Origin: Branchiostoma lanceolatum
Lineage: Eukaryota; Chordata; Leptocardii; Amphioxiformes; Branchiostomatidae
NCBI RefSeq assembly: GCF_035083965.1
Contig: NC_089740.1
Location: forward strand, 7,065,552-7,129,551
Reading direction: 5' to 3'
Length of the DNA stretch: 64,000 bases
In this document: in pieces, positions 7,568 through 46,841 of the stretch
Layout: each line of letters opens with the position of its first letter
Position numbering within the stretch: position 1 is the stretch's first letter
Translations under genes and position numbers: made by a program
Notes under the pieces: generated by a model
What the model was told of the DNA's origin: nothing
Seen by the model: only the letters and a program-made list of their open reading frames with translations
Databases searched by the model: none

Positions 7568-9951
7568 GACTGCCAGTCTTAGCCTAGGGATTAGTTGAAT
7601 ATGCTGCCTAGAAAGCTGGTGAAATCTTAAAAACGTCTTCCATGAGAGTATGGACTTTCATAGGTCAAAATTTCATGTATTTCTAAAGGATTTGCGTAAA
7701 TTCTGACAATGTCTTCCTTAAATTTCTGCGAAATTCTGAGACAGTCAGGCAATCTCAGAGCTTTTTGTAAATTATACTAGTAATTTGTAAAAGAGATTTT
7801 TTTAAAGGGTATGTTATGACCACATTTTAGGTAATGTGTCTATGGTGAACTTTTCTGTATCATAATCACAGTTTAATGATTTGCAACAATTCTATAGTAC
7901 AGTATTACAGTAGTAATACATGATTGGAAAAGCATAATTGCAGTATCATAAATTTATGGTGGAGAGGTCATTTCAAGAAAAATGAAAATAAAACCATCGC
8001 AAACATTCTAAGATTTACAGTACATGTTTTGGTATTCAGGACTTTTTGGTAAATGAAATACAATGTATAAAGCAATGCTTGAAAAAAGAATTCAAAATCG
8101 TAGTGTGCCTTAGACACCCTTTTGAAAATTTGGTAGGTACATGCACATGTAGTTTATACAACCACTATCTGTAAGTTTTAGTTAATGTGTTTAGTACTTG
8201 TGTTTGTATATGTGCACTGTTTCCCCAACTCTTACCTTGCCATGTTGCAAAAGATCACCACTATTCCTGAAAAGTCACAAAGTTAGGATACAAAAGTTAC
8301 AAAACTCTTATAACCCATGTGGAATTAATAGAAATTCGCCATAATTGTTAACATAGATATGTAGGGGAATCAGTGTATTGTATCTGTTTACAGCAAGCTC
8401 TTACATGTACATACATCTCTAATCCTGCAACTGAAATTAGGTATTATACTTCATAAGGTTGTTACATCATAGAATCTCAAGAAGGTGGTAGTTAGATTTT
8501 TTACTCCATTCTCTTGTTTTATCAGGTATCTTGTGTGTTAAAGGTGATTTTGACCAGTAAGTGTCAGTATCAATTGATAGTAGACTAATAATAACCATTT
8601 CTAGTGTAGTTAAAGACACATTGTTTTTGCTGTCATCACTTTTTAACAGGATGTTTTAAAGACCACAGACTCAGTAGTTGTGTAACTACACGGAGATTGA
8701 CCATAAAACATTCATATGAAGGCCATAGAATAATTTTGATACTTCTTAATACATTCTTTGGTATTCTAATTTTGAGAAACATTTTACAATATGGGTATAA
8801 ATACTACTAATTAACATATATTGATGATATTTAGTAATGAACTAGATGGATCTAGTGGTTTTTCATTTCACAAATAGAGATTTTTATTTGTGGGAGACGT
8901 TTTTTGTATATATTCAGTGTTATGATATCTGATCAATCATCTGCATTTTGTACAAGAATCGTTTTTGATAGTAAAAGTACAGCGAGAAGAGAAAGTGTGG
9001 TACATGTAGTTATATTCACCTGCTGTGCAGATAGAACAAACATTTTATAAGAGAAAAGGGCTCTAACAGTTACTGTTAAGTAGTGATTGTGGGAATATCG
9101 GTACAAGCACTCAATTAGATAATTAAAATAGGAACTCATCATACAGTCTATGTGTATTAAATTCCTAATCTTTCTTTATTTGAAGGGAATTTGGGGTCAT
9201 GATCAAAGTTAACAAAAGAAATACAACATACCAGTCCTGTACTTGTATTGGAGCAATGCCACCAGAATTTCAGTGGGGACATTGTACATGTATTTCTTAC
9301 ATTAATGACAATGAGGCTGATCTTGCATATACAATGTCCTTTAGTGTATAAAACTTCTTTTTCTTATTGCTTCTCTGGTCCTGTCTTATCCCCAGGTGTG
9401 ATTTCCTTGTGATTTGCGGAGATTTGTATGTTGTATTCACATTGACCACTTAATTATCTACAACATGTGACTGCACTGTAATATTTTCCTCAGACAGCTA
9501 AGATAAATGACACAATTATTCACACTGTTTCTTGTGTTCATGAGTTGTAATTTCCTCTTGTTGTTCCCACTACTTCTATCAAGTGTTATCTGTGATATGA
9601 ATTGCATACTGGTGTATATATACTTATTACATCCTTGGAAAACGTTTTTCACTTTTTTCTACTTTTGATTCACAAACTTCCCATCAAAGACTAATAAATT
9701 ATTAAGGTCTTTACAACCAAAATGCCTATGACTAAACTGCTACAATCTTACACGTTGATAATAATTTTCTAACTTGTCAAACCATTACTAACTGATAACA
9801 AGACACACTATGATAATAGCAGATCATAGGAATAGTGTGAAATAAAACCCATATTTACGGTCCAGTTACTAAGGAAGCTTTACACTTTAAAGAAAATACA
9901 TCATAGATGTGTACACTGAACTGTAACTCACCATCAAGTTGTTTCAACACT
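7568..9951. other. FES 3' UTR and convergent intergenic region
   Basis: AT-rich sequence between the convergent FES and TRIM-like genes. A polyadenylation signal AATAAA lies at 7987-7992, about 420 bases after the FES stop, and is a candidate 3' end. ORFs here are short and in random frames. About 9470-9680 has a diverged copy at 13380-13620, upstream of the TRIM gene, so part of this flank was duplicated with the TRIM 3' end. Confidence 0.6.
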
Positions 9952-9957
9952 TTTATT
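9952..9957 (-). promoter_or_regulatory. Polyadenylation signal of the TRIM/glycine-rich gene
   Basis: AATAAA on the minus strand, about 35 bases beyond the stop codon at 9992-9994. No other strong signal lies closer, so the predicted 3' UTR is very short. Confidence 0.55.
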
Positions 9958-9991: not shown

Positions 9992-12776
9992 CTACTTGGG
10001 AATCTGTTTAGTATAAATGACCACATACCCTGGTCCATCATTTGCCCCATTCTCACCACTTTTGTCTTTACCAGAATTAAATGAACCTCCGCCTCCTCCA
10101 CCACTTTGTAAACAGAAGTCTCCCGTGCCTCCACCTGAGTACCCCCCTCCCCCACCCCCTCCTCCACCAAACCCATAACTCCCTCCCCCTCCACCAAACC
10201 CACCATCAGCACCATTGCGTGTGCCCTGTCCCCCTTCACCACCATTGATAAATGCCTTCCCACCTTTCCCACCACTACAATAACTGCTTCCATCCGAAGA
10301 CCGTCCTCCCCCACCCCCACCCCTGCCATCAGATTCATACCTTGGTGCCCCATTACCATTAGATCCTCCTCTACATGCAGTTCCTCCATAACTTGTATTA
10401 CCAGTTTCAGACACTGTCCCGTCACACAGGGGGTTACGAGTCTGTAACCCTGCCCCTCCTCCCCCACCCCCAGCAATAATGATTGGGTTATTTTTTAGTC
10501 CAGTAGTAAGTATGATGACAAATGTACCACCCCCTCCTCCCACACCTGCTCCAGACTTGTTCTCGGCACCTTCTTGTCCCACCAGAATCTTCAGACCTTC
10601 ACCTATCAAGAAAAAAAAAGTTTATTACCTTCGCCTAGAAGGTTATGTTTTTAGTAGCATTTGTATGTGTGGATGAAGATGACAGCATAACTCAAGAAGG
10701 CCTGGGTGGATTGTATTATGTTCTGGACATGCCATGGTCATGATTTTGAGTGGTAGATGTAAGTGGTGTAAGTTTTGGTCCCCTAGCTGCTTTTTTTTAA
10801 CTGCAGGAGCAGGTTTTGTTCCAAACTTTGAAACAGAATAACTCGAGAAGGTGTTGATGGATGGTAATGGTTTTTGGTATGTGGATAGCTTGCTTAATAA
10901 CTTTACAGGGAGGCTTCTGTTTTATCCACAAATTTACAAATTACATCATGGTAAGACGTTAAAACTCTAACAGGTGCTATCATGATTAAGAATGTCCCAC
11001 CTTGTTTGAGCTGAAATGTTCCCCTCAGTACGGCACCCCGACCTCGAGCAGACTTTGGGTCAAAAGGACCCCACCCTGCAGCAGCTCCTGATAAAAAGGT
11101 AGCAAAGAAACGTTAACAGTTGAGTAAAATGTTGAACCGAATTCCTAGCTAAGCAGCACAAGCATGACATTATCATGGAAGGTGTTGGTAGTAATCATAA
11201 TACAATGCTATGTTTAGCATTGTATTATAATATAAGCATGACATTCATCACATTTACATGTACCATCATTAACTAAAAGCTCTAACCTGCTGCCTCTATG
11301 ATGTATGTTCCTGTCTCTGGTACAGAAAAGCGTTGTATCCCTTTATGTAGTGTCACCAGGTGTTCATATTGTTGTCCTTTGTAGTGGTTCCCCAGGGTAG
11401 TGGGGCCCAGACGGCCTGTGGCCCCCAGGGTGGTGAACTTCATACAGATACTGGTCTGGTCCTGTACTGTCTGCTCTTCAGCAACAGGTCGATCTGAGAA
11501 AAAGAATAAATTGTTTTTTTCTTTTACTATCATTTTAGAAAATTAGCTCATATGGCATACTACATATGGCATCTGAAATACACAAAACTTGATTTCGTTA
11601 CTTCACAACCCATGTTCTGTTTTTGTGACACAAGTACGAAATCTGACCAGTAATGTTGGCGGTCGCACCAACAATGTTGCCAAGGTCGATTTTCTGTCCT
11701 TTCCTCTTCATCTGAGGATGAAACGTGACGTCACTGATGTCGTCAGGAATGTCCGGAGTTGGACATTTCAGCAGAGTTGCTAGCCGCGCCGTGACGTCAG
11801 AGTACACGTTCATGACGTCAAAGTCACTGCCGTGCTCCACGACTTTCTGCGAGAAGTCTAATGTGCTGGACAGACAGCCTAAAGTGCTCTCAACACTGTC
11901 TGATGTGGCAGAGAGCTGTTTGGAACGGGCTGCAACGTCTGTTGCTAACTGTTCTTTGAGTTCTGTCTGCTTGCCTATGATAAGGCCACTGAAATACTTG
12001 GTCTCTTTGTCCGCAGCTGCATCTATATCATCTGCGGCCCTCTTACTCTTGTTGTCAAGCTCGGCTTGCTTCTTGGCTAGGACACTTGCAACTTCTTGGT
12101 ATTCATCGATCTTTGGCTTGGCAGCTTCCATTGTGTCCTTGATCTTTACCCTGAAGTCACCAACGACGTTTGCCAGGTATCCGTACTTGTGGTCTCTGTG
12201 CTGCAGTACCGTACAATCTCGGCAGATGGGGCGCAGGCACGACTCACAGAAGAACTTCAACTTCTCGTCTTCGTGATTTGGACAGATGGGCAGTGATCTT
12301 GACTTGACGGAATGCGCCTTGGCGAGCAGCTTCTCTTTCAGCTCCGCCACACCAATGATTTCATGCTCGCGAGTACGTTTGGCTCGACGGTGGGCCAGAG
12401 AGCACTCGCCACACAAGAACTCTTCACAGATCTCACAGCCACCGCTTGCTTCTTCTTCTTCGCAAACATCGCAATGGAATTTGTCATCCTCCTTGCTAAC
12501 CAAACTCTTTTGAGCTTCTACGGTATCCCTCAAGCTCAGGACAAAGAAGTTGTCTTTGAGCCCAGCGAGACCGCCCTCCGAAAGCACGGTTTCGGTCCGA
12601 CATGTTGGACAGGGAAACTTTCCCTTCACGTCACCTTCCTTCGCCAAGAACTTCCCAAGACAGCCCTTGCAGAAGGTGTGAAGACACGGCAGGATCTTGG
12701 GGTCCTTAAAGGACTCCAGGCAGATCGCACATTCCAGAAATTCGCCTGAGATTTGGCTAAGAACGGCCTCCGCCAT
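9992..12776 (-). CDS. TRIM-type RING E3 ligase fused to an ALK/LTK-like TNFL/glycine-rich domain
   Basis: Four exons (12776-11648, 11493-11287, 11087-11001, 10602-9992) join in phase to 677 aa. The N-terminus is a classical TRIM: a C3HC4 RING (C16, C19, C31, H33, C36, C39, C56, C59), B-box 1 (C102-H138), B-box 2 (C165-H196) and a helical, Lys/Glu/Ala-rich coiled coil (about 205-330). From about residue 377 it changes to a module matching the extracellular TNF-like/glycine-rich domain of ALK and LTK: FTTLGATGRLGPT, KGIQRFSVPETGTY, a conserved ILVGQEG, PIIIAGGGGGG, then many oligoglycine runs. No signal peptide or membrane helix is seen, so it is presumably cytosolic. RING TRIMs transfer ubiquitin; the C-terminal module usually chooses the target. 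The start is the ATG 15 codons before the RING; an in-frame ATG at 12902 would add 42 residues and is probably 5' UTR. Confidence 0.88.
10620..10920 (+). repeat. Dispersed 'GCATAACTCAAGAAGG' repeat, copy in TRIM intron
   Basis: Contains TTACCTTCGCCTAGAAGGTTATG, split by variation, then GCATAACTCAAGAAGGCCTG, GGACATGCCATGGTCATGA and GGTCCCCTAGCTGC, as in the other copies. It lies in the intron before the glycine-rich exon of the minus-strand gene. Confidence 0.6.
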
Positions 12777-12902: not shown

Positions 12903-13690
12903 GTTTCCTGGAGCTGAACTGTGTGTCAGAAAACTTTAACCATGATGTAATTCTGTAATATTGGTTAGAAACATACGTTCAGTGGTCTGTGAAGTCACAG
13001 AATTAAATGTGGGCTCTTGGTGGCCTTAAGTTTGCTCAGAACCCCATGCATAGCTATCTAACTTTCTTGTAGTAATTCCACTTTGGCTCTGATACTTGTG
13101 ACACATGTATATACACCATCAAATGGTGTATTCTCTTAGATCTATGTTAACATTTGATACAAGCTTTTAAGTAACTGTGAATGTGTAACGTATAGGATGA
13201 GTGTCAAACTCAATCTTGAAATGTCCAAGACTCATTGTTGGATTTTTCATACAATCACACTTTTTTACAAGAAGAAGAATACTTTTGTGATTTCTATTAT
13301 TCAGTACAGCCTATAGATACACTGAACTAATAGGATGAAATTGAAAACTGCATGTTGTGCAACATCATAACATGTGTTCTACACTGTCATATGATCAATA
13401 GTTTCTTCCGACAGTAAAATAAATTATAATCATTCACTCTACCTGTTGTGTTCATTAACTATTGAAATTTTCTATCGCTGTCTCAAACTTGTTGGCACTA
13501 CTTCTACTTTGATACTGAGATATGGGGTAGATATGTGTATATTCTAGTTGACACTCTTCTTTTGATAAAACAAGTCTGAATTTTCTACTGACAACTAACA
13601 AACTTCCCATCAATCTATAACAAGTCAAGTAACATATCTAGTTAATTCAAACATTTTCTTTAGCTCTTATCTGTTAACTAAGCAATGATT
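12903..13690. other. Upstream flank of the TRIM gene; partly a duplicate of its 3' flank
   Basis: No gene is visible. The TRIM promoter should lie here, but no TATA box or clear motif cluster stands out. From about 13380 to 13690 the sequence resembles 9470-9990, the 3' flank of the same gene, including ACAAACTTCCCATCAA at about 13600 and 9674. Confidence 0.5.
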
Positions 13691-13694: not shown

Positions 13695-15250
13695 GTTCTG
13701 TTTAGTAATGACCACATACCCTGGTCCATCATTTGTCCCATTCTCACCACTTTTGTCTTTACCAGAATTAAATGAACCTCCGCCTCCTCCACCACTTGGC
13801 ATATTAAATTAGCAATCGTGTCTGGTTAGATTAGAAAAATATTGTTTATACTGGAATTTGAAGGTGAATTTAAAAAAGACCAAAGTAATAGTCTTCACTA
13901 AAGGAGGTCGATTACCAAAAAATTGTATCTTTATGTTCAATGATAATGTCATAGAAATTGTATTGTCTTACTGTTACTTAGGTATAGTTGTAAGCGCGGC
14001 TGGTACGTTCAAGGCCAATAACAAACAATTATCCAGCAAAGGACTAAAATCTTTGTTCAGTATCAGACAATCACTAGACAACGCTGATGCCTCACTAACA
14101 GTCAAAAACAAACTTTTCGACACATGTGTTAAACCCGTTCAGCTATATGGGTCTGAGATATGGGGGTCCTTCAAAACCCCAAAGTTTTGTCCTATTGAAT
14201 CCGTACACTTAAAATTTTGCAAATACGCACTTAATCTTCCAAGAACAGCTTGCAACCTTGCAGTACGGGCAGAACTAGGGAGGTACCCCCTTCACCTAGA
14301 GGCCTCCCTAAACGCCATTAAATGCTTTCTTAGGATGCGCCACAACGTACCAGCTGACAGTTTACAAGCCGACGCCCTGTTATGCCAACTTCAATTAGAA
14401 GCCAATGGCAAAAAATGCTGGGCGTCCGGTGTCCGTAACATGCTAGAGGAATGCGGTTATGCCTTTGTTTGGAGCCCACAAGTATCCTTAGCAACAAATT
14501 TCTCACATATCATTAACTCCATTAGTCAACGATTAAAAGACATCTATATTCAAACATTCTCAGCCGAAATTCACAACGATAACAGGGATAAATCTTACAG
14601 CAACAAACTCCGAACTTACCGTCTGTTTAAGTCATTGTATAAAGAAGAAGAGTATTTATCCATTAGCAACATCAAACACAGAGTGGCTACTACTAAACTC
14701 CGGGTTAGCTGTCACAGATTACATGTCGAAACAGGAAGGCACAACCGCACGCCTCTACAGCATAGACTTTGTCAACATTGTAATTTAAATCGAGTAGAAG
14801 ATGAACAACACTTCGTCCTAGACTGTAAATTATACGATAGCGAAAGAAGTGTATTTTTTAACCTTATTAAAGAAAAATTCCCATATTTCGAACATCTTAA
14901 TGCAACAGACAAATTCATATATTTATTACGCCTGGATAATCCTTGTATTAGAAATATTGTCTGCTCATATATTTACACATGTACAAAGAAGCGAGAAGAA
15001 GTCGACTCTACTGGACTAGCTTAGTTTAATAACACGTTTTGTCTACACTATATGTTTACAGCTTGTATTGTTGTATTATGTCCTTGTATGTTCCATGTGT
15101 TAAGTTAGACGACCTGTACCTAGCCCCTCGGGGCATGAATGCACAATAAAGGTCTTTCATCATCATTAAAGTGTCCCCAGGTACCCCCTGAATACCCCCC
15201 TCCACCGAAACCATAACTCCCTCCACCAAACCCACCATCGGCACCATAAT
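13695..15250 (-). pseudogene. Broken second copy of the glycine-rich 3' exon, split by a LINE insertion
   Basis: 13695-13797 repeats the terminal part of the glycine-rich exon (10008-10104), with the same run of codons to GGGPG-type coding. After the LINE at about 13798-15170, the copy resumes at 15171-15250 with sequence matching 10130-10215. Both pieces have the parent's orientation. The intervening ~25 exon bases are gone and the rest of the exon, the earlier exons and the TRIM part are missing, so this is a remnant of a tandem gene copy. Confidence 0.8.
13798..15170 (+). mobile_element. 5'-truncated CR1-like LINE, reverse transcriptase C-terminal part
   Basis: A long open frame (13858-15024, 388 codons) matches the C-terminal part of CR1/Jockey-type reverse transcriptases: NLKKTKVIVF, the thumb-like YLGIVVSAAG and LYGSEIWG, and a cysteine/histidine motif C-x2-C-(x13)-H-x4-C near residue 300 (LCQHCNLN... 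EQHFVLDC). The frame is open to its natural stop, suggesting a recent insertion. A 3' UTR follows with the tail CCCCTCGGGGCATGAATG and AATAAAGGTC, ending in a short CATCATCATT repeat, as CR1/L2-type elements do. The 5' two thirds are absent, so it cannot move on its own. Confidence 0.8.
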
Positions 15251-15959
15251 AGAGGGCCTGTATGGGGGGTCCCGACAACGATCTACGCTAAGTTCGGACG
15301 GCCGACTACGTATTACGCTAAATTCAGGACGCCTCTCTACGCTCTACGCTAGATTCTGAAGCTTCCCAATGCATTATTCAGGACTCAAAGACAATGGGCC
15401 CTAAATGTAGTTGTCTTGCTGACTGGAAGGGCCGTATTCTTTCTCCACCGCTATTAAATAATTAATCCTGAACACAGACCAGAACGCTGCTGAAACATCC
15501 TGAGGTCCTCCCGTGTAGACAACTCTGTTCCTCTCGTGTCGACAACTCTGTTCCTCTCGTGTCGACAACTCTGTTCCTCTCCGACAGAAGTAGGTTCTCA
15601 AATTTTTTGTTGTTCTTTCGTTAATCGACGATGGACAGAATGAAAAGTTTTTCAAAGGTTTGATGCGGAAGACTTGTTGTCTATTCTCGATTCCGTAAGT
15701 TTCTAAAAAGATAGGTTGAATATTAGGTTGGACAGATTTGTCATTTGTAATCAAAGCTGTACTACAATGGCTCTCCACATGCTCTGATGAAATATTTCTA
15801 TCATTTTCAGTCCTGGTGTGCAGGACATTCTATAAGGCTCTCATAGTAGGCCAGGTATTTACGCTTAGGATCTTGAAAGAAACTACTGAAAAGATTTTAT
15901 TTTTAGCTACTTTCTATAAAGGTTGCTCTTGACCAATCGATTTCCACCAATCAACAGAT

Positions 15960-16661: not shown

Positions 16662-17540
16662 CTACAATTCATTCAATAACTCTACGGTAAAAGGTAATGT
16701 GGTGTTCTTAAATCTGGAAGTTCTGCAGCTGAACGGTGTGAATTTGTTCTTTGACCTTAGATCCCTACCGTGGACGCTTCCCCGTTTCGGAGGGAGCCAA
16801 CTAGAGAGGGTGGGGGATTTAGAGATGGACAGTGCAAATTTCATACACAGATTACGTCGTCTCAGGTACAGGGGAGTGAGTGACAGCTGTTCTAATGCTC
16901 TGTCGTAGCTAACATAGTTTTTACCTAGAATCATGCGGCACGCCCTCTTTTGTACAGCTTCTATGTGGTTTGACTGGAGAGTAGTGAGACCAGGATGCCA
17001 CACAGGGCAAGCATACTCTAACAATGGTCTTACAAAACCACAGAAAACAAGCGTTAAGTCATAGTTAACAAGTCCATGTTTCTTTAGGACACGTACCAGA
17101 TAAAGCCTACGGTTAGCTTTGCTCACTATCGAGTTTACATGAGTGGACCACTTGAGATCGGCTTGCAGGATTACACCTAGAACTCTAGCAAACTGCACTA
17201 ATTCCAACTCTGATGGTCCTACATACAACTGTGGAGGTGGGGGTGGGTTTCTCATAAAACATATCACCATTACTTTACATTTCACTGGATTAAGTTGCAT
17301 GTAATTAGATTCAGTCCAGCGCACAAGTCCGTCAACGTCCCTTTGCATTGTAGAAGGAAGAGTTCTGGGTCTGGGTTCGGCCAACGACATGTCGTCAACG
17401 TATTTCCAGCTATCCGCCGACCCTTCTTCAACCGGAACAGCGTCATTGATGAGGGCCAGGAATACGAGAGGGCCTAACTTAGTTCCTTGTGGTACTCCGC
17501 ATGACAGTGTTTCCCATTCAGAAAGAGTTCCATGGTACTT
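16662..17540 (-). mobile_element. Jockey/CR1-clade LINE fragment with reverse transcriptase core
   Basis: Read on the minus strand from about 17540, the frame gives CGVPQGTKLGPLVF, then YVDDMSL (the YxDD active-site box), then LNPVKCKVMVI, FARVLGVILQADLKWSTHV and YACPVWHPGLT: the palm and thumb of a non-LTR reverse transcriptase. An in-frame stop lies before the first block, and the 5' part and endonuclease are missing. It differs from the LINE at 13.8 kb. It is flanked by inverted repeat blocks (see 15430-20030). Confidence 0.85.
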
Positions 17541-20250
17541 GACACGTTGTACAGGCTACACAACCTAATCATGTCAATCATAGCACTGGTGCATTTCAAA
17601 ACACATGGAATTAATTATCAGGAAGATCTCACTCTTGTATATATTTTATCAGGGGACTTGGAGAGCCGTTGTAGTACATATTTGGTTACAAATGGCAAAT
17701 CTGTCCAGCTAACGCCGTTGGCAAATCACTCAACCTATTGTTTCAGCAACATGATACGGTGTCGAGAATAGACAACAGATTTTTCGCATCAAATCTTGCA
17801 TGGGAGGGGTAAGTTGTAAAACAGGTTTTTGATTTTTCAGGGTAAGTTGTCACGGTGAATGCACGGCTCAGATTGGCCAAGATAAAGGACTATGTAACTT
17901 CCTTGCCCTGAACAAGGACGAGATCGCTGAAACATTCTGAGATCCGCAACTGCTGTTCCTCTCGAACAAGCCGGAATAGAAGTAGGTGCTGATTTGTATT
18001 GTTGTTGCTTAAAAGAGTCCTAAACTCTAGAAGGGAGTGTTATTTTCCACTAGATTATGTATCAATGAATACATCACCAGTTGACTTTTTACAGAATTCC
18101 GCTTGAGGTGAATTTCACAAGGTGTGTTTTGTAAAATAATATGTAACTCACTAAACCCGTGCAGACCCTACCCACGTATTCCCTATACGCATACTCGCTT
18201 CCTTTATCGTGAATATTTTTGGCATGAATGAGGGGGGTTAAGCACAATAAGAAGGCCAGTTGCTAATAAGATATAAAGGAACACATAACAAGACAATTTT
18301 TTCTTAACCCCCCTGACATCTTATGTGTAGCCTAACTTTTGCCAGGCCTTGTCAGGTACATTGTATTCAGGCATAGGCTGAGGTTGTTTAATTTGATTAA
18401 TTACAAAATAGAGGATCACCAGGGGAATTTAGTAGAATACTCAATGCTTTTTGATGCGCACGGGACTAGTGGGTACTTTATCGTATACTGTAATAAGTAT
18501 TCATTTTTACTTCCTAAAATTATCATCTATGGGAAAATAATTCTCCCCCTCTGGAGTTTAAGACTCCTTTGAATCGAGGATAGATAGAATGGAAAGTTGA
18601 CCATTATAGCATAGATAGGTTTGATGAAGGACATTATATATAATGCCCTTGGTTTGATGTGGAAGACTTGTTGTCTATCCTCGACTCCGTAGGTTGATGC
18701 AAAAAAACTTCACGATCTAATTCATACAATCTCAAAGCCGATTTGTTGTTATTGTTCCATGAAGTACGTATAACCCTTATCTTTCTCTCTTTATTTGACG
18801 ATTTCTACGCATTTGTAAGTTTTAAGCGTCCAAAGAACCAAGGAGGTTTTATAGAGAAAGAACACACATATTTTGCACTACTTTACAGTATCAAGACCCT
18901 TCGTTGTCTATTCATATCCGTTTAGTTACAAAAAGGAATCATTAGCAAAAAATCCCACCTGAAGTGGCTTTGTTACCATTATTGTTATTCTTTGAATAAA
19001 TTCTATACATGTTTATGTAGCATCAACTTTGTGTATAGCGCATTTTGCAACATTCGACTACCCAACTCCATTATTCTAATCAACTGTGGATCGGATGTTA
19101 GGTGACTTTGCCGGAAAATCCGTACAAAAATGTACGGAACAAAGTCGAACCGACAACTCAAAGCGCTTGGTTTTGCAACAATCGACAACAAAATGCGCTG
19201 AGATGACATTTACATAAGACCGGGGGTGTTAAAGGTGCCCTAAGCGATTTCAGGGGGTAAAACTTGAAATATTCTGGGGAAAACAATTCTGTTTTGTGAG
19301 GTAGAAATTGACGTTTGCTTCCCCATATTACGACATCTGCATCATAATTTCAGACTTTGGGCGTTTAAAAATAGCACAGAAGCAAGCCACAAAAGGAGTA
19401 TTTGATTTATTGGGTCCCCCCAAAAATCAGGCCAGAATCCAGCCGTAACCGTTTTCTGTTGACAATTTTCGGTAACTTCCGGCCGCGTGACGTCACAATG
19501 CCCAAGGACATTGAGCCATGACCACGTGATTATTTCTTCGGATGCGTTCGGGACGTATCGGTCAGAATCGTGCATGTTCGGAAGATTTGAAATGATGGCT
19601 GGCCTCCAAGTGCTCAGATTTTCAATGAGTTGCCACCACACAACGACATCACATTTTTGCTCCATGATGGTCGATATGTGATGATATAGTGTTATCTAAA
19701 CTTACTATGGATAGAAATCAGAAAAAAAAATGATTTTGAACATATGACTTTCAGCGCTCTAATATTGCTTAGGTTGCCTTTAATAACCCACAACTTGGCC
19801 ATCATTTTCTAATTGTCGTTGACGTTCGGTGACCTGCCAGCAGCCATATGATTGGACCTCGCTAGAAGTAGAAGACTATTGTCTGTTGTACAGTGTACAT
19901 GTACACGGGGTAGCAACCTTTATAGAAAGTAGCCAAAAATAAAATCGTTTCAGTAGTTTCTTTCAAGATCCTTTGTTCTTTAAAAAGCGTAAATATATGG
20001 CCTACTATGAGGGCCGTCATTCGACTTATGATATGTCCTGCTACTGGAGAGAACAACGTTTACGTCAAACAACTTGTCGGACTTGCGGTTTCCCCCATGA
20101 GGCAATCACTCCGCAGGCTTGATATGAATGCCTTGTCAGCTTCCTCGCCCTCCAGTAGAGGACTGTCTTGTTTTATCTACTTGCAATCTAAACAAAAAAC
20201 TTTCATTCAAACTCCCGTGACATTGGACATGGTACATGTATATAATATAT

Positions 20251-20440
20251 CATAACTCGAGAGTGCCTGGGTGGATTGTCTTCATACTTGGTCTTTTCAA
20301 GACCTCGAAATGATTAGATTTAGGGCCCACTAGTGGCTTGTTATGGTACTGCAGCGGAACTTCCGGGTTTGATATCTCGTGTTTTGGACATGCTATGGCC
20401 ATGACTTTTGAGTGGTAGATAGCAAAAAAGTCATCATGTT
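20251..20440 (+). repeat. Dispersed 'GCATAACTCAAGAAGG' repeat, copy
   Basis: A short copy with CATAACTCGAGAGTGCCTGG, ATGATTAGATTTAGGGCCCA, GGTACTGCAGCGGAACTTCC and TTTTGGACATGCTATGGCCA, just upstream of the NXPE first coding exon. Confidence 0.65.
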
Positions 20441-20629: not shown

Positions 20630-23600
20630 ATGGGAGCATCAAAAGGAATCCTCTTCGCCTTGTCGCTTTGTTTCTGCGGGCTACTTCTGTTATACACAAC
20701 AAAGGTAAGTTTTTTTTTTCAATTTTACTTTTAAACTTAAAAATTTAACCCGTGTTAGGGAAAGGAAACATTCTGTTGAAGTGTGAATTGTTTCAAAGAC
20801 TTACTATCCGTTTGTTTTGCAAAAAAAGAAGGACTTTCGTGGGAACAAGCTTTCTTAAAGCACCTCTAATAGGTCTCCTTTTGAATAGCCTGTATGTCAG
20901 ACCTTGGATCGGTCTCTAGAATATCCATCGTTAGGGGTCAAGTTGACTATAAAAAGATTTTCGAGCAGTGGGACGAGAAGCTGATACTAATGGCCATTTA
21001 CAACACAGGAAGCCTACTACAGGGCAGATACCACAGGCAGACTTGTGCCTAGCCACTCGGGGCACGAATATACAATAAATGTCTTCATTCTTCTTCTTCT
21101 TCTTTATCCCTCCCTTAGGAGAGCATAGTTAAAAAAAGTTAAAATCCTCCCACACCATAATTGATGTATGGGGCGGTGCCCATCTCCGTTTCATAGCCCT
21201 GGGGCCACACTGTGGTGCAATCACTGCAGCAGGGGGCTAGTCCACTGGCAGTGGAGTGTGTTTAACTTCCATACTGTTTCATAAGTATGTACCATTTTTA
21301 TAAAGTCTTTGGTATGACTCAATGCGCCTCTTGTCCAGAGGTGCCCTACCTGAGGCTAGAACCCCAGTCCTTCTGGTCCAAGTAATTTGAACCAGATGTG
21401 GCAGAGTAGCAAAGGCGCAGACCACTACACCACAGGGACACCAGAGCATAGCACATTTAAAATATAACAGTATTGATACATATTCAGAAGACAAAGAAAT
21501 ATTTACAAATCTCACGTTGTATGCCATCCGTCACATCTATATGTCTAAGCCTGTGGCGCTCGTTGTTCTACTGTAGTGTTCGATTTCACTTAAGTCTCTA
21601 CTCCCCTCACCGGGAATAATTTTTCAACGGCTTATAAGTTGTCATCACACATAATCACATGGTCATCAGCCCTATCCGCATAGCTTCATCACACTTCAGT
21701 TAAATATAACGGTATTGATACATCTATAAAAGACAAAACATATTCACACATCTCACGGCCAGTGACGTATGCCACATTAATATGTCAAAGCTTGTGTTAC
21801 TTGTTGTTCTTCTGTAGTGCTCGATTCATTTCTGTCTCTCCTCCCCTTATCGGGTATAATTTTTCAGCGGCTTTTAAGTTGTCGTCACACATAACCACAT
21901 GGTCATCAGCCCTATTTCCTTTCACAGTTTCCACATTGTGACCCTTACATACATTCTCTGGTGTCCTTTCTTGACTCTAATTACCAGGTATAGTTAAAGT
22001 CTCTGTTCGTCTCAGTTCCTGGGTTTTACTATATCAATGTCTGTAAGTTCTTTGTTCTTTGCGCGTGTGTTGCAGGCTGTTGCTATCATTTCCATCTCGT
22101 GTGCTTCTTCAATAAATGTCTTCATTCATTCATTCATTTATTCATTCATCACCAAGGAAACGTTCTCTCCCCTTGCATTCCAACACAGGAGAAGAACCTG
22201 ATGTTCAAAAAACCGAAGAACCCGATGTTCAAAAGACCGAAGAACACGATCTTTAAAAAACCGAAGAACCCGATCTTCAAAGAACCCCCCTTTGAATCAT
22301 CCCATGAACAAAATAAACAAAAACGAGTAATAAACATTAATGGGATCACCACAGCAGCCAACATGTCGGTATCTGTTGTTAATCCTCAGACTCAAGTTGC
22401 TGTTGGAGAAATATTATCAATCAAAATAGTTGCCCGTGATGCATATTCACGACCTAAACGTTACGGAGGTGATTTTCTATTGGCAAAATTGTGTACAGAA
22501 TCTCCTGTAGATGCTTGCATGGCTGGGAGAATAACAGACTATGGAAATGGTACTTACACGGCCAAGTTTCTCTTAAACTGGCCGGGAGACAGTTCCGTCT
22601 CAGCTTTGCTGATACACCCGAGCGAAGCTGTACAAGTTCTTAGGAGGATCCGAGATTCCTTTTCAGACAGGCGGCTTACGTATTGCAAATTTGAAGACAA
22701 AAAATTGAATATTTCCGAATGGACCAGATGTAGCTTTGACCCAAATCATGATATTAATCCGCAAAGTATCTGTGATTATTCTAATCCGATACCGAACTCT
22801 ACATGGGTCTGTGAAAAGCCAAAAGGGTTCACTTGCAACTCCATGGAGGCATGCCGACATAACGTAGAGGCCGAGAAAACGATGATAGAGAGGATGTTTA
22901 CCGCAAGCGAGACTCAACTGTTTGACAGGTATTGTATACCATATATATTTTTCATAATGTTGTACAATATCCCGCTAAACGTCATAGATAATGCACAAAA
23001 AGTAATAATAACGATTTGGAATGAAAATGGTTTTTAGTCTTTACAATGCAGGTTACGTACTAAGTACTGATTCGGTATAGATTATCCGCTGTTAAAGTAA
23101 GTTTAGCAGTCAAATCATCAGTCTAAGATTATTTCATTCTTTTTTATGGGCCAGCACTTTGCTGGGTCGCATGGAGAAACTTGCTGTATAGAATAAATCT
23201 CATGCCATTTAACCATTATGATTTATTCCCATTGCAGGACCCATGTAAATCAGAAGATTCCAGGTGATCTGAGGATCTTTGTAAGAGATAAAGGTAAGTA
23301 CGTGATACGTGAATACTGAAACAACTGGTGAATAAAGTTGATTAACCAACTCCTTACTGTTTGACTGACAAGACTGTTCAAATGTTGACTGTGTGGATTT
23401 CAATATGTTAATATTGATGTTGAACCGTTGAACCATTTTACGTGTGTGTGGGGGGGGGGGGCACTAGTGACTACAGACCCCCCAACTTCCAACCTCTGTA
23501 TGTTTTTGGTATTGTTGTTTTAGTGCAGTGAGTCTTAACACAACAAAGTGATTAGCTTCACAAATGGAGGAAGTTGATTTTGATCACTAAGCATTCGACG

Positions 23601-24539
23601 TTATGCCCATGGGAGAGGCACTTTACACGTCCTTCCCTGACGGTGGTGTGACGCCCACTGAGCCACTTCGGCCAATCTGTCAAAATGTGTGCCAAAAACA
23701 CACTACGGATTCGGTGCGCGACATATCCACCAAGAGCCGTTAGATTTTTTAGAACTCATTACTTTTTATTATCTTCCCTACTAGGTTCTAACTATCAATC
23801 TAGTGCAGGGCCTCTACCACGTTGCGGTCCGCATCTGCCAGAGGCGATTTCTGAAGGGTACTGGTACAACGGCACGTGGATTTCACTCAGATGTCGATCG
23901 CTAAAATTCTCCACACATATGGCCCACAACTGTCTCAAGAACAAAGTCATCTTTATAATAGGCGATTCGACAGGAAGACAGTACAGGGATTACTTCATAG
24001 ATATATTGAAAGGCAATCTGGTAATGATAAATGATGGTATGAGAAACCAGGAAAATATCTTTAACAGTACAGGATTACATTTCCGACTCCATGCCTATCC
24101 ATCTGCACATGATAGTATGCATGCAAGGAGCCTTAAATATACTACCGAGATTATTGACAGCATCGTCGGTGGACCCAATGTAGTTGTCATTCTCAGTATA
24201 TGGGCACATTATACTGCTTTACCCCTAGAAACGTTTACGTCTAGAGTTTACGGAATTCGCCATGCCATCGAACGTTTGCAGAGAAGAAATCCCGGCACAA
24301 AGGTCGTCTGGCGAACAAGTAATATGAGGGGACATACGGAGTTGGGTCACTTTGTGCAGAACAGTAACTGGTACGCATATCAATTTGTGCTGGCGGCCAA
24401 GCGGATACTCAGTGACCTTGATATATTTATTATGGATGTTTGGGATATGTCTGTATGTACTAAGTACATAATACATCCAGAGCCTCATGTTATCAAGAAC
24501 CATATTGATTTGATATTGTCTTACATGTGCCCTCAGTAA
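20630..24539 (+). CDS. NXPE (neurexophilin and PC-esterase) family protein
   Basis: Exons 20630-20704, 22189-22928, 23238-23293 and 23785-24539 join in phase to 541 aa. The first exon encodes a short cytoplasmic tip and a hydrophobic segment (about residues 6-22), i.e. a signal peptide or type II signal anchor. Four octapeptide repeats of the type (M/I)FK(K/R)PKN(P/T) follow at about 28-57. Then comes the neurexophilin-like beta domain (RDAYSRPKRYGGDFL, NGTYTAKFLLNWPG, LIHPSEAV) and the C-terminal PC-esterase/SGNH-like domain with GDSTGRQY (350-357) and a late D508/D511 plus H521/H525 set (DVWDMS, IHPEPH) that fits the Ser-Asp-His triad. Several cysteines suit a secreted or luminal protein. 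Family function in animals is poorly defined; sugar O-acetylation is proposed for related PC-esterases, so an esterase/acetyltransferase role is inference. A 5' UTR acceptor (TTATTTCAG at about 20601) implies an upstream non-coding exon. Confidence 0.9.
21038..21075 (+). mobile_element. LINE 3' tail
   Basis: TGCCTAGCCACTCGGGGCAC followed by AATAAATGTC and a CTT-rich run matches the 3' tail of the LINE at 15110-15165. Only the tail remains. A similar AATAAATGTCTTCATTC tail stands at about 22111-22140, just before the second NXPE exon. Confidence 0.6.
21129..21442 (-). mobile_element. tRNA-derived SINE with 9-bp target-site duplication
   Basis: On the minus strand it begins with a tRNA-like head: CCTGTGGTGTAGTGGTCTGC (A box) and GGTTCAAATTAC (weak B box). 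Perfect AGAGCATAG repeats flank it (21120-21128 and 21443-21451). It is 314 bp long and lies in NXPE intron 1. Confidence 0.7.
21453..21930. repeat. Tandem ~245-bp duplication in NXPE intron
   Basis: 21453-21697 and 21699-21930 are direct copies at roughly 80% identity. Shared stretches include AATATAACAGTATTGATACAT (with one change), ATAATTTTTCA-CGGCTT and CACATGGTCATCAGCCCTAT. Confidence 0.75.
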
Positions 24540-25523: not shown

Positions 25524-26417
25524 TCAGGTGTGAGAATCTAAGATCTTTTTCAGTATTGAGTTCACCACATCCATGGTTTCATCCTGGACAAGCACAATGT
25601 CGTACAACTCAGTAAACGTGTCCAGCCTCTCCAGATGTGCGTTCAGATATCCGATCTTCAGCACGTTCTCTACGTTCGGCACGCCGTCCGCCATCTGTAG
25701 ATCTCCCGGCGAGTCTCCGAGAAGAATCACGTTCGTACGCTCGCGTTGGTCGGTGAAGTAGCTCTCGTCTGGAAGCACGCTTTTATTCTTGTTGAAGATG
25801 TGGATCAACGGATCGTGGAAACCAACAAGCTTCCCGGCACCATCAAACTTCATGAAATTCGAGACAACACGACAGTTTGGATACACCATGTTGTACTTCG
25901 CGAACATTTCTTGGATGACGTCTCCGAGCCCAGCGGAAAACACGAGTAGCGGGACATCATGGCGGTGAAGCGTGCTCATGAAGGCGTCGCAGCCTTCCCG
26001 TAGCGGCGGGCTGGAACCGCGTATGGTGGACGAGATGTCTCGTTGGTTCAAATCGGACGCCAGAAAGATGTCGTGGATTTGTGTCCAGAAGTCGACCATC
26101 AGCTGAACCTTCTCTGACATAGGGATGGATAGGGAGATCTCTTTTGGGTAATAATAATCCACAACCTTTTTCACCTTCGCCCGGGTTGGCTCGGACAGAA
26201 GGCTGGATTGTGCGATGACGTCGTGACTCATTGGACACCTCACGCCGTTGAAGGCATAGCGACTGAGAGTCTGGTCGAAGTCGCTGATGACGCGTAACTT
26301 CTGCTTCCCGGCTGCCACGAGATTGGACAGTATCTGCTCCACACGGCGGACATCTGTGATGTGGATGTGGTCTTGTTCGACCAATCGCAGCAAGCGTAGC
26401 ATTGATGCACTGGACAT
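25524..26417 (-). CDS. NT5C3: Cytosolic 5'-nucleotidase III (pyrimidine / 7-methyl-GMP nucleotidase), single coding exon
   Basis: A 297-aa uninterrupted frame. The HAD-type motif I is DFDQT (46-50; DFDMT in vertebrate proteins), followed by the family signatures KVVDYYYP, PLREG, VFSAGLGD (motif II serine), VVSNFMKF, HIFNKN and the magnesium-binding LLGDSPGDLQMADG (motif III/IV), ending VLVQDETMDVVNSIL. Length and order match NT5C3A/NT5C3B. The enzyme removes phosphate from pyrimidine monophosphates and, in the B form, from m7GMP made by mRNA cap decay; A versus B was not resolved. The Met-to-Gln change in motif I lies between the two catalytic aspartates, which are kept. The start is the first ATG, preceded by a possible acceptor (TTTCCATTTCAG at about 26465), so a 5' UTR exon may exist. 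Vertebrate orthologues have many coding introns; none is present here. Confidence 0.93.
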   Translation of the reverse strand: MSSASMLRLLRLVEQDHIHITDVRRVEQILSNLVAAGKQKLRVISDFDQTLSRYAFNGVRCPMSHDVIAQSSLLSEPTRAKVKKVVDYYYPKEISLSIPMSEKVQLMVDFWTQIHDIFLASDLNQRDISSTIRGSSPPLREGCDAFMSTLHRHDVPLLVFSAGLGDVIQEMFAKYNMVYPNCRVVSNFMKFDGAGKLVGFHDPLIHIFNKNKSVLPDESYFTDQRERTNVILLGDSPGDLQMADGVPNVENVLKIGYLNAHLERLDTFTELYDIVLVQDETMDVVNSILKKILDSHT

Positions 26418-26990
26418 CTCAGTCTCTTGCACTGGACTTCAAGAGGATTACAAATCCTGTAGCACTGAAATGGAACAATAACTTGATTTTTGTGCCTTTC
26501 TATTAATGAATCATTAATTTCAAATCATTCTGCTCCACATTGTTTTGTTTTTTTTTGCATCAAAGCAAAACATGGTCACTAAGTGATTAGTCTACATCTA
26601 CATCTAATACGGGCGTGGAGTTAACCACTAGAATTCCTCGGCCGTGGAAGTAAACAATCCACGGTCTTGAGAAATAGCTCTGTACCAGTATTTTGGGAGC
26701 CAAATATACCCCCGCCACCCTCCCTCTATCTATGCCTTGCTCCTTGGTACTGGCGCGCGCCAGGTACTGTATAGGTACATGAAAAAATATGTCTTCTTCT
26801 CCGTGGTACTCACCTTCAATGACTGAGTCTAAGCTAAAGGCTATCTGAGCCAAAGGAAGGTTCACAAAGCATAGTATCGAATCAAAATCGTGAGAAACTC
26901 GTGGACGAAGTCCAAAGTCCCTCTCTTCCGTAAACTAGGTCATGAACCCTGGATGGACTATACCAAAACATTTAAGGTAAACCTTGGCAC
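26418..26990. other. Nucleotidase upstream region
   Basis: Probable promoter and 5' UTR side of the minus-strand nucleotidase gene. No TATA box or clear motif cluster is seen. A 92-codon minus-strand ORF (26865-26587) has no recognisable homology and was not called. Confidence 0.4.
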
Positions 26991-30884: not shown

Positions 30885-31049
30885 CAAGGACACTTAGGAA
30901 GAGGTGAACCGTTAGAAAAAAACAATTTTTAAAAGAGTACCAAATCCTACCAATGTTGCAAAAACGGGCGTAAAGCACTGAGCATGTGCCGGTTCTACTT
31001 GGAGATTACATATCCGAGCTCATATGACCGATGCGGCCTTTTATTACCT

Positions 31050-31910
31050 TCGCCGAGAAGGTTATGCAGAGGTTTGTTTGTAACGTACAGCATAACTCGA
31101 GAAGGCTGGGATGAATCGTCTTGATATTTGGTAGGTGGGTAGGTCTTGATGAGACATGGAAATGATTAGATTTTGGGTCCCCTAGTGGCTTGTTATGGTA
31201 CTGCAGCGGAACTTCCTGTTTTAATATCTCGTGTTCTGGACATGCTATGGTCCTGATTTTTTTAGTGGTAGAAAGCTCTTTGGACCAAGGAGGTTTTATA
31301 TAGATTCTATATAAAACCTCCTTGTTTGGACGGAGAGTAAGTGGTATAGATTTGGGCCCCTGGCGGCTTTTTCTGGAACTGCAGGAGCAGGTTTTGCTTC
31401 AGACTTTGAAAGGTAATAACTCAAGAAAGGGCATGATGGATAGTCATGATTTTTGGTAGGTAAATAGCTTGAGTGATGATGTACATGATTAGGTACCTAT
31501 TATGCAAAACAGTATCCAATTTGCATAAATAATGAGGAAAGTTTATACAGCCACCAAATTCCATGATAGGACTGTCAAACATGTGACATATGTAACTGAG
31601 GAAGAGAGAAATATTAAAAGATATCAACTATGAAAATGAGGACCTCATTTGCATAATTAATGAGAAAATACTATAACTCATGATTTTTGGTATGTAGATA
31701 GCTTACGTGATACTTTGTATGATTGGACGATAATTATGCAAACCAGATTCTAATTTGCATAATTAATGAGACAATTGTAAAAACTTGCTGTATTCCATGA
31801 TATGACTATTCAAATACGTGACATTTGTAACTGAGGAAGAGAGGGATGTTGACAGAAAATATGCAATTGTAGGCCTAATTCGCATAATTAATGAGAAACT
31901 AATATAATTC
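31050..31910 (+). repeat. Dispersed 'GCATAACTCAAGAAGG' repeat, long copy
   Basis: The copy starts at TTACCTTCGCCGAGAAGG and includes GCATAACTCGAGAAGGCTGG, GGTACTGCAGCGGAACTTCC, GTTCTGGACATGCTATGGTC and TTGGGCCCCTGGCGGC. It then has an AT-rich 3' half in which TTTGCATAATTAATGAGA recurs three times (about 31650, 31755, 31875), as in the copy at 46755-47480. A 39-bp palindrome interrupts it at 31286-31324. Confidence 0.7.
31286..31324. repeat. Perfect 39-bp palindrome
   Basis: CAAGGAGGTTTTATATAGA, one base, then its exact complement. It interrupts the dispersed repeat between blocks that are adjacent in the 46755 copy. CCAAGGAGGTTTTATAGA also occurs once alone at 18838. Confidence 0.85.
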
Positions 31911-32643: not shown

Positions 32644-33922
32644 AACTACGCACAAAAAGTTCGGAAACTTAACTTTGGTCGATCATATTTCCGTTATTTT
32701 TTTACCGATTTCAATATATTACATATCATTTAAAAGCCTACTTGATTTCCTTTCCCATGATACCAAACTTATTGTGATTGCAAGTTCATGAAACGAGCAT
32801 CAGGCCTGCTAAAGTGAGTGGGTCGAAGAAATAAAGTGCCCAGATTACCTTACAATAGTCAAACATGCTATTCCGTACATATTCTTCTGTTGATATTGAC
32901 TTCTGTACGAGGGTATTGTGAAAAATCAACAAGAATAAACAAGACATATCCATGAAAGGTAAGTTTATTCTTTATCAAAACCAACAATCTGTGTCTTAGT
33001 AACGGGTTAGCAAGGAGTCTTAGTAACGGGTGATCCAGCCACGCGCTGTCACTACAGCACGGCACCTCCTCCTCATACTCGTCACCAGTCGCGCAATGCG
33101 ATGCTGTGGGATAGCGTCCCATTCCTCCACCAGCAGTCGTCCTAGGTCAGCCAGCGTTGTTCTCTCGGTCACTCTTGCACGGACAGCCCGCCCAAGCTGA
33201 TCCCATAGATGTTCGATGGGGTTCAGGTCCGGGCTCTTAGAGTGCCACTCCATCCTCTCTACACCTGCAGGCTGGAGATGGTCGGCGATGATCCCTGCCC
33301 GGTGTGGGCGGGCGTTATCATCTTGCAGCAAGGCATTCGGCCCCATGTTATGGAGGAAAGGGATGGCCACCGGATCAAGTATTGTGTCACGATATCTTTC
33401 TGCGTTGAGGGTTCCTGGTACAAGTCTTGTCTTTCCCCTGGAGTTTATGCCTCCCCATACCCCAATGTTTGTTGTGAAACAATAACAAAAAATAACACCT
33501 GTGGATGACGATAATGTTGCAGGACGCAGGTGTTTATGTGGTGTAAACAATTGGTTCTTCGATGTGCTAAAAATAACCTTGGATGTTCTGTGTGCTAGAA
33601 ATAACCTTGGATGGTCTGTGTTCTAAAAATAACCTTAGAACCTGAGGAAACAATATATTGAATCATCATCCGCGCCCATACCGATAGGATGTCACAGCGC
33701 GCGTATGACACCAACAAGGAATTTTGGGCACTTTTTCTCCGTGACCCACTCACGTTATTAGTCCTGGTACTTGTTCCGTGGGTTTTCAATCACAATAAGT
33801 TTGGTATCATAGAACAGGGAATCACACAAGCTTTATAATGATACACAATGCATCAAAATCGGTAAAAAACAACGGAGATATGATCAACCAAAGTTAAGTT
33901 TCCGAACTTTTTGTGCGTAGTT
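32644..33922 (-). mobile_element. Internally deleted Tc1-like transposon with long inverted ends
   Basis: TA duplications (32642-32643, 33923-33924) flank ends starting AACTACGCACAAAAAGTTCG. The inverted ends continue with gaps to about 190 bp (AACTTATTGTGATTG at 32768 and its complement near 33790). The minus frame 33550-33020 encodes the C-terminal part of a Tc1 transposase: GVWGGINSRGKT, LNAERYRD, LLQDDNARPH (second catalytic Asp) and PDLNPIEHLWD (catalytic Glu). The DNA-binding domain and first catalytic Asp are missing, and a ~30-bp unit with AAATAACCTTGGATG is repeated at 33570-33640. It is non-autonomous. Confidence 0.9.
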
Positions 33923-35189: not shown

Positions 35190-36224
35190 CACAGCCGACT
35201 TACCACCGCTGAAGGAGGACAGACCGAGTGGCGTATGGTGATGCAGGCTTCTGGAGGTGGCATTCGATCATAACCTTGGCGACCAGGACATTCATACAAT
35301 CATTCGCACATTCAGTTCAATCCATTAAACTATAGAGAGCAAACGGAAACTGTCTGGGTTCAAATCGTGTCTTTAGTAGCATTGTTGTCGACAAAGTACC
35401 GGATCGTCAAGTGTACAGCTGTGCCACTCTGGCATTTTGAAACATTATCTCGAAATTCACATGAATACAATATTGCACAATCTTTTTACCCTACCTCTAG
35501 AACAACAATGTGTAAGCCTCATCTCTAATACTACAAACATCTATTCACCACAAGTAACATAAACACAATAGTTCACAATATTTCTATTAGTACCCTAGCC
35601 CTAAGACTAACAAAAGTGTAAAGTTAACCTAACCTGTCATAAATACTAGCTAAAATACAACAAAAATACAACAACTACAGTCCCCATGCATAGAAGCCCC
35701 ATTTATGAAGAATCAGGAAAACTATTTTGGGTCCGCTCAAAAGGCTTAGGCTTAGGTGTAAGTGCTGAGAGTTAGTCAAAGGAGTTAATGTGAATGTTAG
35801 TGTGAGCCTCTACCCAAGCCTTTTAAGCATGGCTAGATTCAAAGGAGCTGAACGAATTTTCATGGGACTTCTGTACACGAGACTCTAAGCCATAGACTAG
35901 TCTAAGCTACTTCAACCTAAGCTAACAAATTCTAGGCTACCATAGTCTTAACTACTAAAGTCTAAGCTACCTCTGTCTATTGACTTTCTATGTAACGCCA
36001 CAAAGAAGAATCACTGCCAGAGTTCTTCACAGCGCCATTGCCTCTGTGCCAAGTCCCGAAGATGTCTTCTCCCTCACACGCCGGAACAGAAGTCCCGAAG
36101 TTGTCTGGTCACTTCCAGGTCGCCGAGGTCTGCATGTGTCTAGTTAAGGAGCATTTTGGTGCAAAATATCCATTCAAAGGGTTCGTTTTCCATCTGGAAG
36201 AAAAGCAACAGGTACAAACAGACA
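35190..36224. other. Gene-free stretch before the satellite field
   Basis: No coding or RNA feature recognised. 35880-35980 contains several degenerate copies of CTAAGCTAC (CTAAGCTAC, AAGCTAAC, AGGCTACC), a minor local repeat. Confidence 0.4.
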
Positions 36225-37020
36225 AACAAACCTGTGGAGAAAAAGACACAAGCACACATATCTTCAATCTGGAAGAAAAGTAACAGAAACACACACACAG
36301 ACCTGTGGAGAAAATGACACAAGCACACATATCTTCTTTCTGAAAGAAAAGCAACAGAAACACACAGACAAACCTGTGGAGAAAAAGACAAGCACACATA
36401 TCTTCAATCTGAAAGAAAAGCAACAGAAACACACAGACAGACAATCCTGTGGAGAAAAAGACACAAGCACACATATCTTCAATCTGAAAAAAAAAGCAAC
36501 AAAAACACACAGACAGACAAACCTGTGGAGAAAATGACACAAGCACACATATCTTCTTTCTGCAAGAAAAGCAACAGAAACACACAGACAAATCTGTGGA
36601 GAAAAAGACACAAGCACACATATCTTCGATCTGGAAGAAAAGCAACAGAAACACACAAACAGACCTGTGGAGAAAATGACACAAGCACACATATCTTCAA
36701 TCTGAAAGAAAAGCAACAGAAACACACAGACAGACAATCCTGTGGAGAAAAAGACACAAGCACACATATCTTCAATCTGAAAAAAAAGCAACAGAAACAC
36801 ACAGACAAACCTGTGGAGAAAATGACACAAGCACACATATCTTCAATCTAAAAGAAAAGCAACAGAAACACACAGACAGACAATCCTGTGGAGAAAAAGA
36901 CACAAGCACACATATCTTCAATCTGAAAGAAAAGCAACAGAAACACACAGACAGACCTGTGGAGAAAATGACACAAGCACACATATCTTCAATCTGGAAG
37001 AAAAGCAACAGAACAGAAAC
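36225..37020. repeat. 72-bp satellite, block 1 (about 11 units)
   Basis: The unit is about 71-75 bp: CTGTGGAGAAAAAGACACAA, then GCACACATATCTTCAATCTG, then GAAGAAAAGCAACAGAAACA, then CACAGACAGAC. The purine/CA-rich strand is the plus strand. Units differ by point changes and by 2-4 bases in the CAGACAGAC part. Confidence 0.95.
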
Positions 37021-37074
37021 AGACAGAACGTACAGAAACATACAGACAAATTTGTTGAGAAAATAAAAGCACAC

Positions 37075-37425
37075 ATATTATTTATCATTTGTCTTTTATC
37101 ATTATTCATCAATATTATTTATCAATTATTATTATTCATCATCATTTATTATCATTTATTATCATTTACTATTCATATCATTTATTATCATTTATTATTA
37201 TTTATCATTTATTATTAATTATCATTTATTCTTCATCATTATTATTTATCATTCATTATCATGTATCATTCATTATTATCTATCATTTATTATTCTTTAT
37301 CATTCATTATCACTTATCATTAATTATCATTTATCATTATTTATCATTTACTATTTATCATTTACTATTTATCATTTACTATCTGTTATCTATCATCTAT
37401 TATTTATTTATCTTATTTTTTTTAA
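37075..37425. repeat. (TTATCA)n-like AT-rich microsatellite between satellite blocks
   Basis: Imperfect TTTATCATTTATTATCA-type sequence for about 350 bases. It splits the 72-bp satellite into two blocks. Confidence 0.9.
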
Positions 37426-37440
37426 TTTCACTCTGGAAGA

Positions 37441-39020: not shown

Positions 39021-39074
39021 GTCACAAGGAAAAAAAAACATGGCTTGTATCTTATCTGCCTTTAACTTAAACAG

Positions 39075-46440: not shown

Positions 46441-46754
46441 TAATTGATTAAAGACATGCTGACGAAGTCGTCACATCAAAATCCTTTTCTAATTATTCGT
46501 GACCTTTTTACCTTATCAACTCAAAGTAAGAAACTCGTGTAAAACTGATGAATAAAAAAAGAAACCCTGCCTAAGGCTTGGTTTACACAAGAATTTCTAA
46601 CCTCGGGTTTGGAGTGGGCGCCGAATACTCTGAGCAAACTCGGAGTGTGCTCCGAGATTAATGGAAACGTGTGTGTAAAAAGGGCCTTAGGATACCTGTA
46701 GTGCCGATATTCACCTGTACAGTTACGTTGGCATGTGACGTTCATCACACGTTT

Positions 46755-46785
46755 ATCACCTTTGCCAAGAAGGTTATGTTTTCGA

Positions 46786-46841
<56 letters not shown>

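Follow-up and report, generated by a model that had tools for sequence, protein, structure and literature searches.

A lancelet TRIM gene predicted to end in a TNF-like/glycine-rich module

The window analyzed here, a 64,000-nucleotide stretch of Branchiostoma lanceolatum DNA (contig NC_089740.1, positions 7,065,552 to 7,129,551), contains on its minus strand a gene at 9992-12776 in which a TRIM protein appears to be joined to a TNF-like/glycine-rich (TG) module. The gene model has four exons and encodes 677 residues with no internal stop codon or frameshift. We propose, with a probability of roughly 0.6, that this is one gene for a TRIM E3 ubiquitin ligase of the cytosol, in which a complete TG module forms the target-binding end. 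Modules of this type are used by ALK receptors to bind hormones and, as has been proposed, by some phage tail fibers to recognize bacteria. At the DNA level, the pairing of TRIM and TG module looks real. No report of the combination was found among the titles and opening parts of abstracts that were listed in searches of an open-access library, some of them aimed at TRIM or RING proteins, and predicted-protein databases may well already hold it unremarked.

Gene model and domain order

The first exon encodes a RING that fits the C3HC4 zinc-ligand pattern and scores 39.4 bits against PF13445 (cut-off, 25.2), followed by two B-boxes that were recognized both by pattern and by Pfam (B-box 1, PF22586, 27.6 bits against a cut-off of 27; B-box 2, PF00643, 52.2 bits against a cut-off of 24.1). 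Residues 222 to 263, at the position of the expected coiled coil, form a stretch of 42 residues without proline or glycine, and a coiled coil after the B-boxes is probable. Among the PDB sequences, the solved proteins nearest to exon 1 are TRIM3 and TRIM2. A preliminary description of this DNA had called the product a full RING/B-box/B-box/coiled-coil TRIM; the RING and both B-boxes were recovered, and the coiled coil can be given as probable. E3 ubiquitin ligase activity would be predicted for such a protein.

All three introns are in phase 1, and one reading frame spans the TRIM part and the module (Table 1). The exon coordinates of the preliminary description were correct, the landmarks that it had named (FTTLGATGRLGPT, KGIQRFSVPETGTYII, KILVGQEG, and PIIIAGGGGGG) are all present, and its claim that the TRIM is joined in phase to a second domain agrees with the single frame and the phase-1 donor and acceptor predicted here. 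The splice between exons 1 and 2 (11648/11493) is predicted from several features of the junction. The exon 1 donor (GTCAGA after 11648) is the only GT on the same strand with a score above 0 between 11800 and 11580, and it leaves the frame in phase 1. In absolute terms the donor is weak: its score of 0.88, obtained with a donor consensus matrix, lies at the 92.8th percentile of same-strand GTs in the window. Of the 13 positions before the acceptor at 11493, 12 are pyrimidines, and just one other AG between 11600 and 11380 reaches 8 of 13, with 10. The later joins are supported by homology, as relatives of the module align without a gap across the exon 3/4 join and with small gaps near the exon 2/3 join. 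The G+C content is 0.51 to 0.58 in the exons versus 0.305 to 0.374 in the introns. The glycine-rich stretches of exon 4 comprise seven runs of 3 to 9 glycines each.

The module stands where other TRIMs have an NHL or SPRY domain, as had been suggested: the frame is single, and Pfam finds no NHL in it. Pfam also gave no match to a kinase domain in the 677 residues, and neither a signal peptide nor a transmembrane segment is apparent by hydropathy (best hydrophobic 19-mer, 1.28) or by eye.

Table 1 Coordinates of the gene and of the related features upstream of it, numbered within the window
Feature	Position	Strand	Content
Exon 1	12776-11648	-	Start codon; RING, residues 16-59; B-box 1, residues 102-138; B-box 2, residues 165-196; then helical stretch and linker, to residue 376
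Intron 1	11494-11647	-	TRIM/module junction; 154 bp, phase 1
Exon 2	11493-11287	-	First TNF-like strands, FTTLGATGRLGPT ... KGIQRFSVPETGTYIIEAA
Exon 3	11087-11001	-	TNF-like part, strand region GAVLRGTFQL
Exon 4	10602-9992	-	KILVGQ strand, glycine-rich stretches, last strand GYVVIYTK, stop
AATAAA polyadenylation-type signal	9952-9957	-	About 35 bp beyond the stop; ATTAAA also at 9975
Decayed exon 4 copy, 3' flank	13397-13640	-	64% identical to flank of intact gene, 9480-9713
Decayed exon 4 copy, 3' piece	13697-13808	-	96% identical over 104 bp, 3-bp gap
Open reading frame of the inserted element that splits the decayed copy	13813-15024	+	Stop-to-stop open reading frame of 403 amino acids
Decayed exon 4 copy, 5' piece	15154-15261	-	Beyond the inserted element

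Kinship of the module

When residues 375 to 677 were compared with 177,635 PDB sequences by phmmer, LTK and ALK were matched at 3.2e-9 and 1.6e-8, respectively. Most of the match comes from the TNF-like half, outside the glycine runs, and in the case of ALK there is little composition bias; the reversed module found no match in the PDB, Pfam, or PHROGs at expect values (E) up to 10. The module also matches PHROG 22713, a phage family without an assigned function, at 5.8e-30 over module residues 53 to 294. A tblastn search of phages with the whole module gave no match at 1e-5; with the E limit relaxed to 10, it returned four records, two of them from one genome at 8e-5 and the others at 0.6 and 1, and phmmer, run on a set of 11 proteins, supported all three phage proteins at 8.5e-24 to 2.2e-18. 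Scans of viral and prokaryotic contigs with the single sequence found no loci, and scans with an alignment to which the three phage relatives had been added found at least 4 prokaryotic loci and at least 19 viral ones, two of which resemble each other. A total of 34 modules, including that of the TRIM, were kept at a domain E of ≤1e-6 after identical copies had been removed. A profile of the other 33 scores the spliced module at 183.7 bits over positions 5 to 289 of 291, a value that is partly circular, as these copies were found by means of the TRIM module, whereas the match to PHROG 22713 is independent of it; none of the 21 controls (the reversed module and 20 shuffles) gave a score. On these comparisons of sequence, the module is complete, and it is homologous to that of ALK as well as to modules of bacteria and phages. 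The preliminary description had called it ALK/LTK receptor type, which holds as to homology and is too narrow as a name, the family also including phage proteins and Bacteroidota proteins that are read as exported.

A 291-residue cyanophage protein among the relatives lies two genes away from one annotated as structural. In cyanophage S-SZBM1 (locus L001, 4827-7387), two further glycine-rich proteins, SSZBM1_49 and SSZBM1_48, come after the TG protein, near genes annotated as structural. Another phage gene (locus L002, 4518-10282) bears the annotation "ALK tyrosine kinase receptor," presumably owing to its TG module. Two of the bacterial loci, both from Bacteroidota, are read as encoding exported proteins because PKD domains are present in one (L023), and fn3 and HYR together with a Por secretion tail in the other (L024). 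PF12810 (ALK_LTK_GRD) has 32 matches in the genome of L023, which belongs to the Flavobacteriales, and the family was matched in 12 of the 16 genomes returned for that order. A nanohaloarchaeal protein (L025, 3167-4417) keeps the cysteine pair (FTTC...DC) that ALK and LTK have in the first TNF-like loop. This pair is present in 4 of 16 compared rows (ALK, LTK, L023, and L025), and both of its positions are leucine in the TRIM module. The loss of the pair was considered as proof of a cytosolic home and rejected, as the modules of the Por-tailed L024 and the viral rows are also without it.

The TNF-like half was compared more closely in 17 rows, obtained from the 34 modules plus ALK and LTK by removing 12 modules without GQxG and 7 rows without the FT..GP start; one further, partial row was removed for the tree (16 rows, 111 columns), a selection that favors the better-conserved rows. 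The scores of the TRIM module are 64.4, 62.7, and 58.2 bits with three Bacteroidota copies, 48.8 bits against the nanohaloarchaeal copy, 45.2 to 43.5 bits against three viral copies, and 40.8 and 40.1 bits against ALK and LTK, the lead of the microbial copies being inflated (as is the profile score above) because they were kept for their likeness to the TRIM module, and the ALK and LTK rows being short printed fragments rather than whole domains. ALK itself scores 61.7 bits with L023 versus 40.3 with the TRIM module. In the tree, the TRIM module is placed among the cellular copies and ALK/LTK, separate from the nine viral rows (99/98). A branch uniting the TRIM module with ALK and LTK was neither shown nor rejected (approximately unbiased test, p-AU 0.637), the TRIM row being on a long branch. 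The module could have come from ALK, from another animal glycine-rich protein, or from a microbe.

Proposed function, alternatives, and the locus

With no signal peptide or transmembrane segment apparent, a role in recognition within the cytosol is the one most naturally supposed. ALK and LTK use their TG module to bind protein ligands. In the scheme that we propose, the coiled coil would pair two chains, and each TG module would form a small beta-sandwich with a projecting lattice of polyglycine-II helices. Non-glycine loops at the end of the lattice would bind the ligand, as has been proposed for phage fibers of the same fold, and the RING with its E2 would thereby be brought to the target, to which ubiquitin would be attached. 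The cytosolic location, the dimerization, and the binding by loops are all predictions from the predicted protein sequence, and the target of the loops may be a microbial surface or an endogenous protein. A function in immunity or toward aggregates, which the preliminary description had raised, is likewise conjectural. The C-terminal domains of TRIMs often set the specificity of interaction (PMC3137616), and in S16 gp38, variability in the distal loops of the polyglycine sandwich has been tied to host range, with receptor binding proposed (PMC6851490). Obg, a protein that binds GTP and the ribosome, also has glycine-rich helical bundles (PMC8409303), so that glycine-rich architecture needs no secreted setting. 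A fold was modeled for a close bacterial relative that is 41% identical to the TRIM module; the solved relatives of this fold are receptors and phage fiber or tail-tip proteins, with PDB titles that name complexes of ALK or LTK with ALKAL or AUG.

A number of observations weigh against this proposal. Exon 4 folded alone gave a useless model (predicted local distance difference test score, 38), so that its fold is carried over from the bacterial relative, and 2 of the 10 modeled strands are unlike their counterparts in the TRIM module (NVV/TLH and SNQNNQAGVN/KDKSGENGAN). Against ALK, no significant match is obtained with the glycine-rich half by itself. In the Pfam comparison that the preliminary description had suggested for the module, PF12810 is a near miss, with 20.5, 22.7, and 23.3 bits for the whole protein, the module, and the TNF-like half, respectively, each below the membership cut-off of 24.5. 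The branch of the TRIM module is long (2.15), which could reflect relaxed constraint rather than fast adaptation. The relatives that were examined work outside the cell, and the TRIM-fused module has five cysteines; together these could point to an extracellular ancestry or destination.

A bolder form of the proposal, which we consider unlikely though worth stating, is that an adhesin-type head of the kind found on phage fibers and exported bacterial proteins has become an intracellular pattern receptor on a ubiquitin ligase. Its distal loops would recognize the surfaces of microbes, or proteins that bacteria export, and tag these with ubiquitin, and the module may then itself be microbial in source.

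It is also rather unlikely that the glycine-rich end is an assembly device, with the polyglycine-II lattices of several TRIMs packing into a signaling or condensate scaffold. TRIMs commonly work through higher-order assembly, and the module is intact along its whole length, as such a role would favor; glycine-rich polyproline-II bundles have moreover been proposed to associate and to drive condensates (PMC8409303). However, what has been kept is the TNF-like framework with its variable inserts and not the glycine runs alone, and the fold is otherwise known from the receptors and phage proteins named above.

Direct descent of the module from a lancelet ALK receptor, with the protein handling ALKAL/Jeb-type ligands or ALK signaling within the cell, is an unlikely reading. 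The phmmer matches to ALK and LTK and the failure to reject a joint branch (p-AU 0.637) favor it, and the contrast with the bacterial copies that outscore ALK is weakened by their having been chosen for likeness to the TRIM module. However, the TNF-like half scores higher with those bacterial copies (64.4, 62.7, and 58.2 bits, against 40.8 and 40.1 for ALK and LTK) and higher with three viral rows too, the ALK/LTK cysteine pair has become two leucines, and ALK ligands are extracellular.

Two adjacent genes, namely, a TRIM without a C-terminal domain and a separate glycine-rich gene, would fit the reading of the exon 1 frame into intron 1 as far as a stop at 11598 and the weak exon 1 donor. We regard this as very unlikely, given that the two parts are just 154 bp apart with neither AATAAA nor ATTAAA inside the intron, that the exon 2 acceptor is clean, and that the phases match. 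A second gene equipped with a promoter and a signal peptide, which the preliminary description had named as the case that would undo the fusion, would have only this 154-base gap for them, and the sole in-frame ATG within it starts MIVKEKNNLFFFS, which by eye is unlike a signal peptide. Finally, a young chimera in the course of being lost, from an unstable locus and without a selected function, would suit the wrecked exon 4 copy about 1 kb upstream, the long module branch, and the dispersed repeats in intron 3, yet it is highly improbable in view of 677 codons without a stop or frameshift and the retention of the zinc-ligand patterns and a near-complete module.

The presence of this wrecked second glycine-rich exon indicates that the locus duplicates and decays. 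The glycine-rich relic piece scored 241, whereas the best of 200 shuffles reached 170, and the 3' piece has a further 6-bp gap just ahead of its own stop. The contrast between its coding tail (96% identical) and its flank (64%) points to gene conversion or to constraint that acted for some time before the decay. A weak, stop-containing match to a TRIM exon beside the relic was rejected because 161 of 200 shuffles scored equally high. The 403-residue frame of the element that splits the copy looks by eye like the end of a long interspersed nuclear element protein and has no Pfam match.

Other features of the window can be listed briefly. The segment at 10620-10892 in intron 3 is a dispersed repeat with partial copies near 20251-20420, 31040-31471, and 46751-47162, and a tandem repeat with a period of about 75 bp, about 39 copies, and several open frames occupies 36188-39028. 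Neighboring coding matches are of the neurexophilin/NXPE type (21994-24539), a pyrimidine 5'-nucleotidase (UMPH-1; 25527-26438), and the SPT5 KOW6 domain (51365-51742). A DDE_3 transposase piece, which we take to be Tc1-like, lies at 33023-33622, and a similarity to reverse transcriptase at 16665-17555 is weak (27.3 bits, below the cut-off of 29.6).

Comparison with known systems

The TRIM half resembles TRIM2/TRIM3-type ligases (Subfamily C of Marin, 2012) in having its RING and two B-boxes within one exon, but where those have an NHL or filamin domain, Pfam finds neither here and the TG module takes their place. A list of human TRIM C-terminal domains contains no such module (PMC2533329). 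In Marin's survey, which includes Branchiostoma, lancelet TRIMs are described as having gained MATH domains, and the word "glycine" is absent from the main text (PMC3503706). The Branchiostoma TRIMs with two MATH domains offer a parallel, being lancelet Subfamily C proteins with a new domain brought in by recombination (PMC3503706); the new domain is MATH there and TG here.

Compared with the TG domain of ALK and LTK (PF12810), the lancelet protein has neither the kinase nor the transmembrane part, has lost the cysteine pair of the first loop, and scores just under the Pfam cut-off. The Bacteroidota copies (L023 and L024) give the highest bit scores with the TNF-like half among the rows compared (58 to 64) and align over the full length at 41 to 44% identity, but they are coupled to PKD domains or to fn3, HYR, and a Por tail, whereas the lancelet module would be coupled to a TRIM. 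SSZBM1_50 of cyanophage S-SZBM1 and the Pam3 tail fiber gp24 are phage proteins, and in the tree the nine viral rows stand on a branch of their own (99/98), apart from the cellular copies among which the lancelet module falls.
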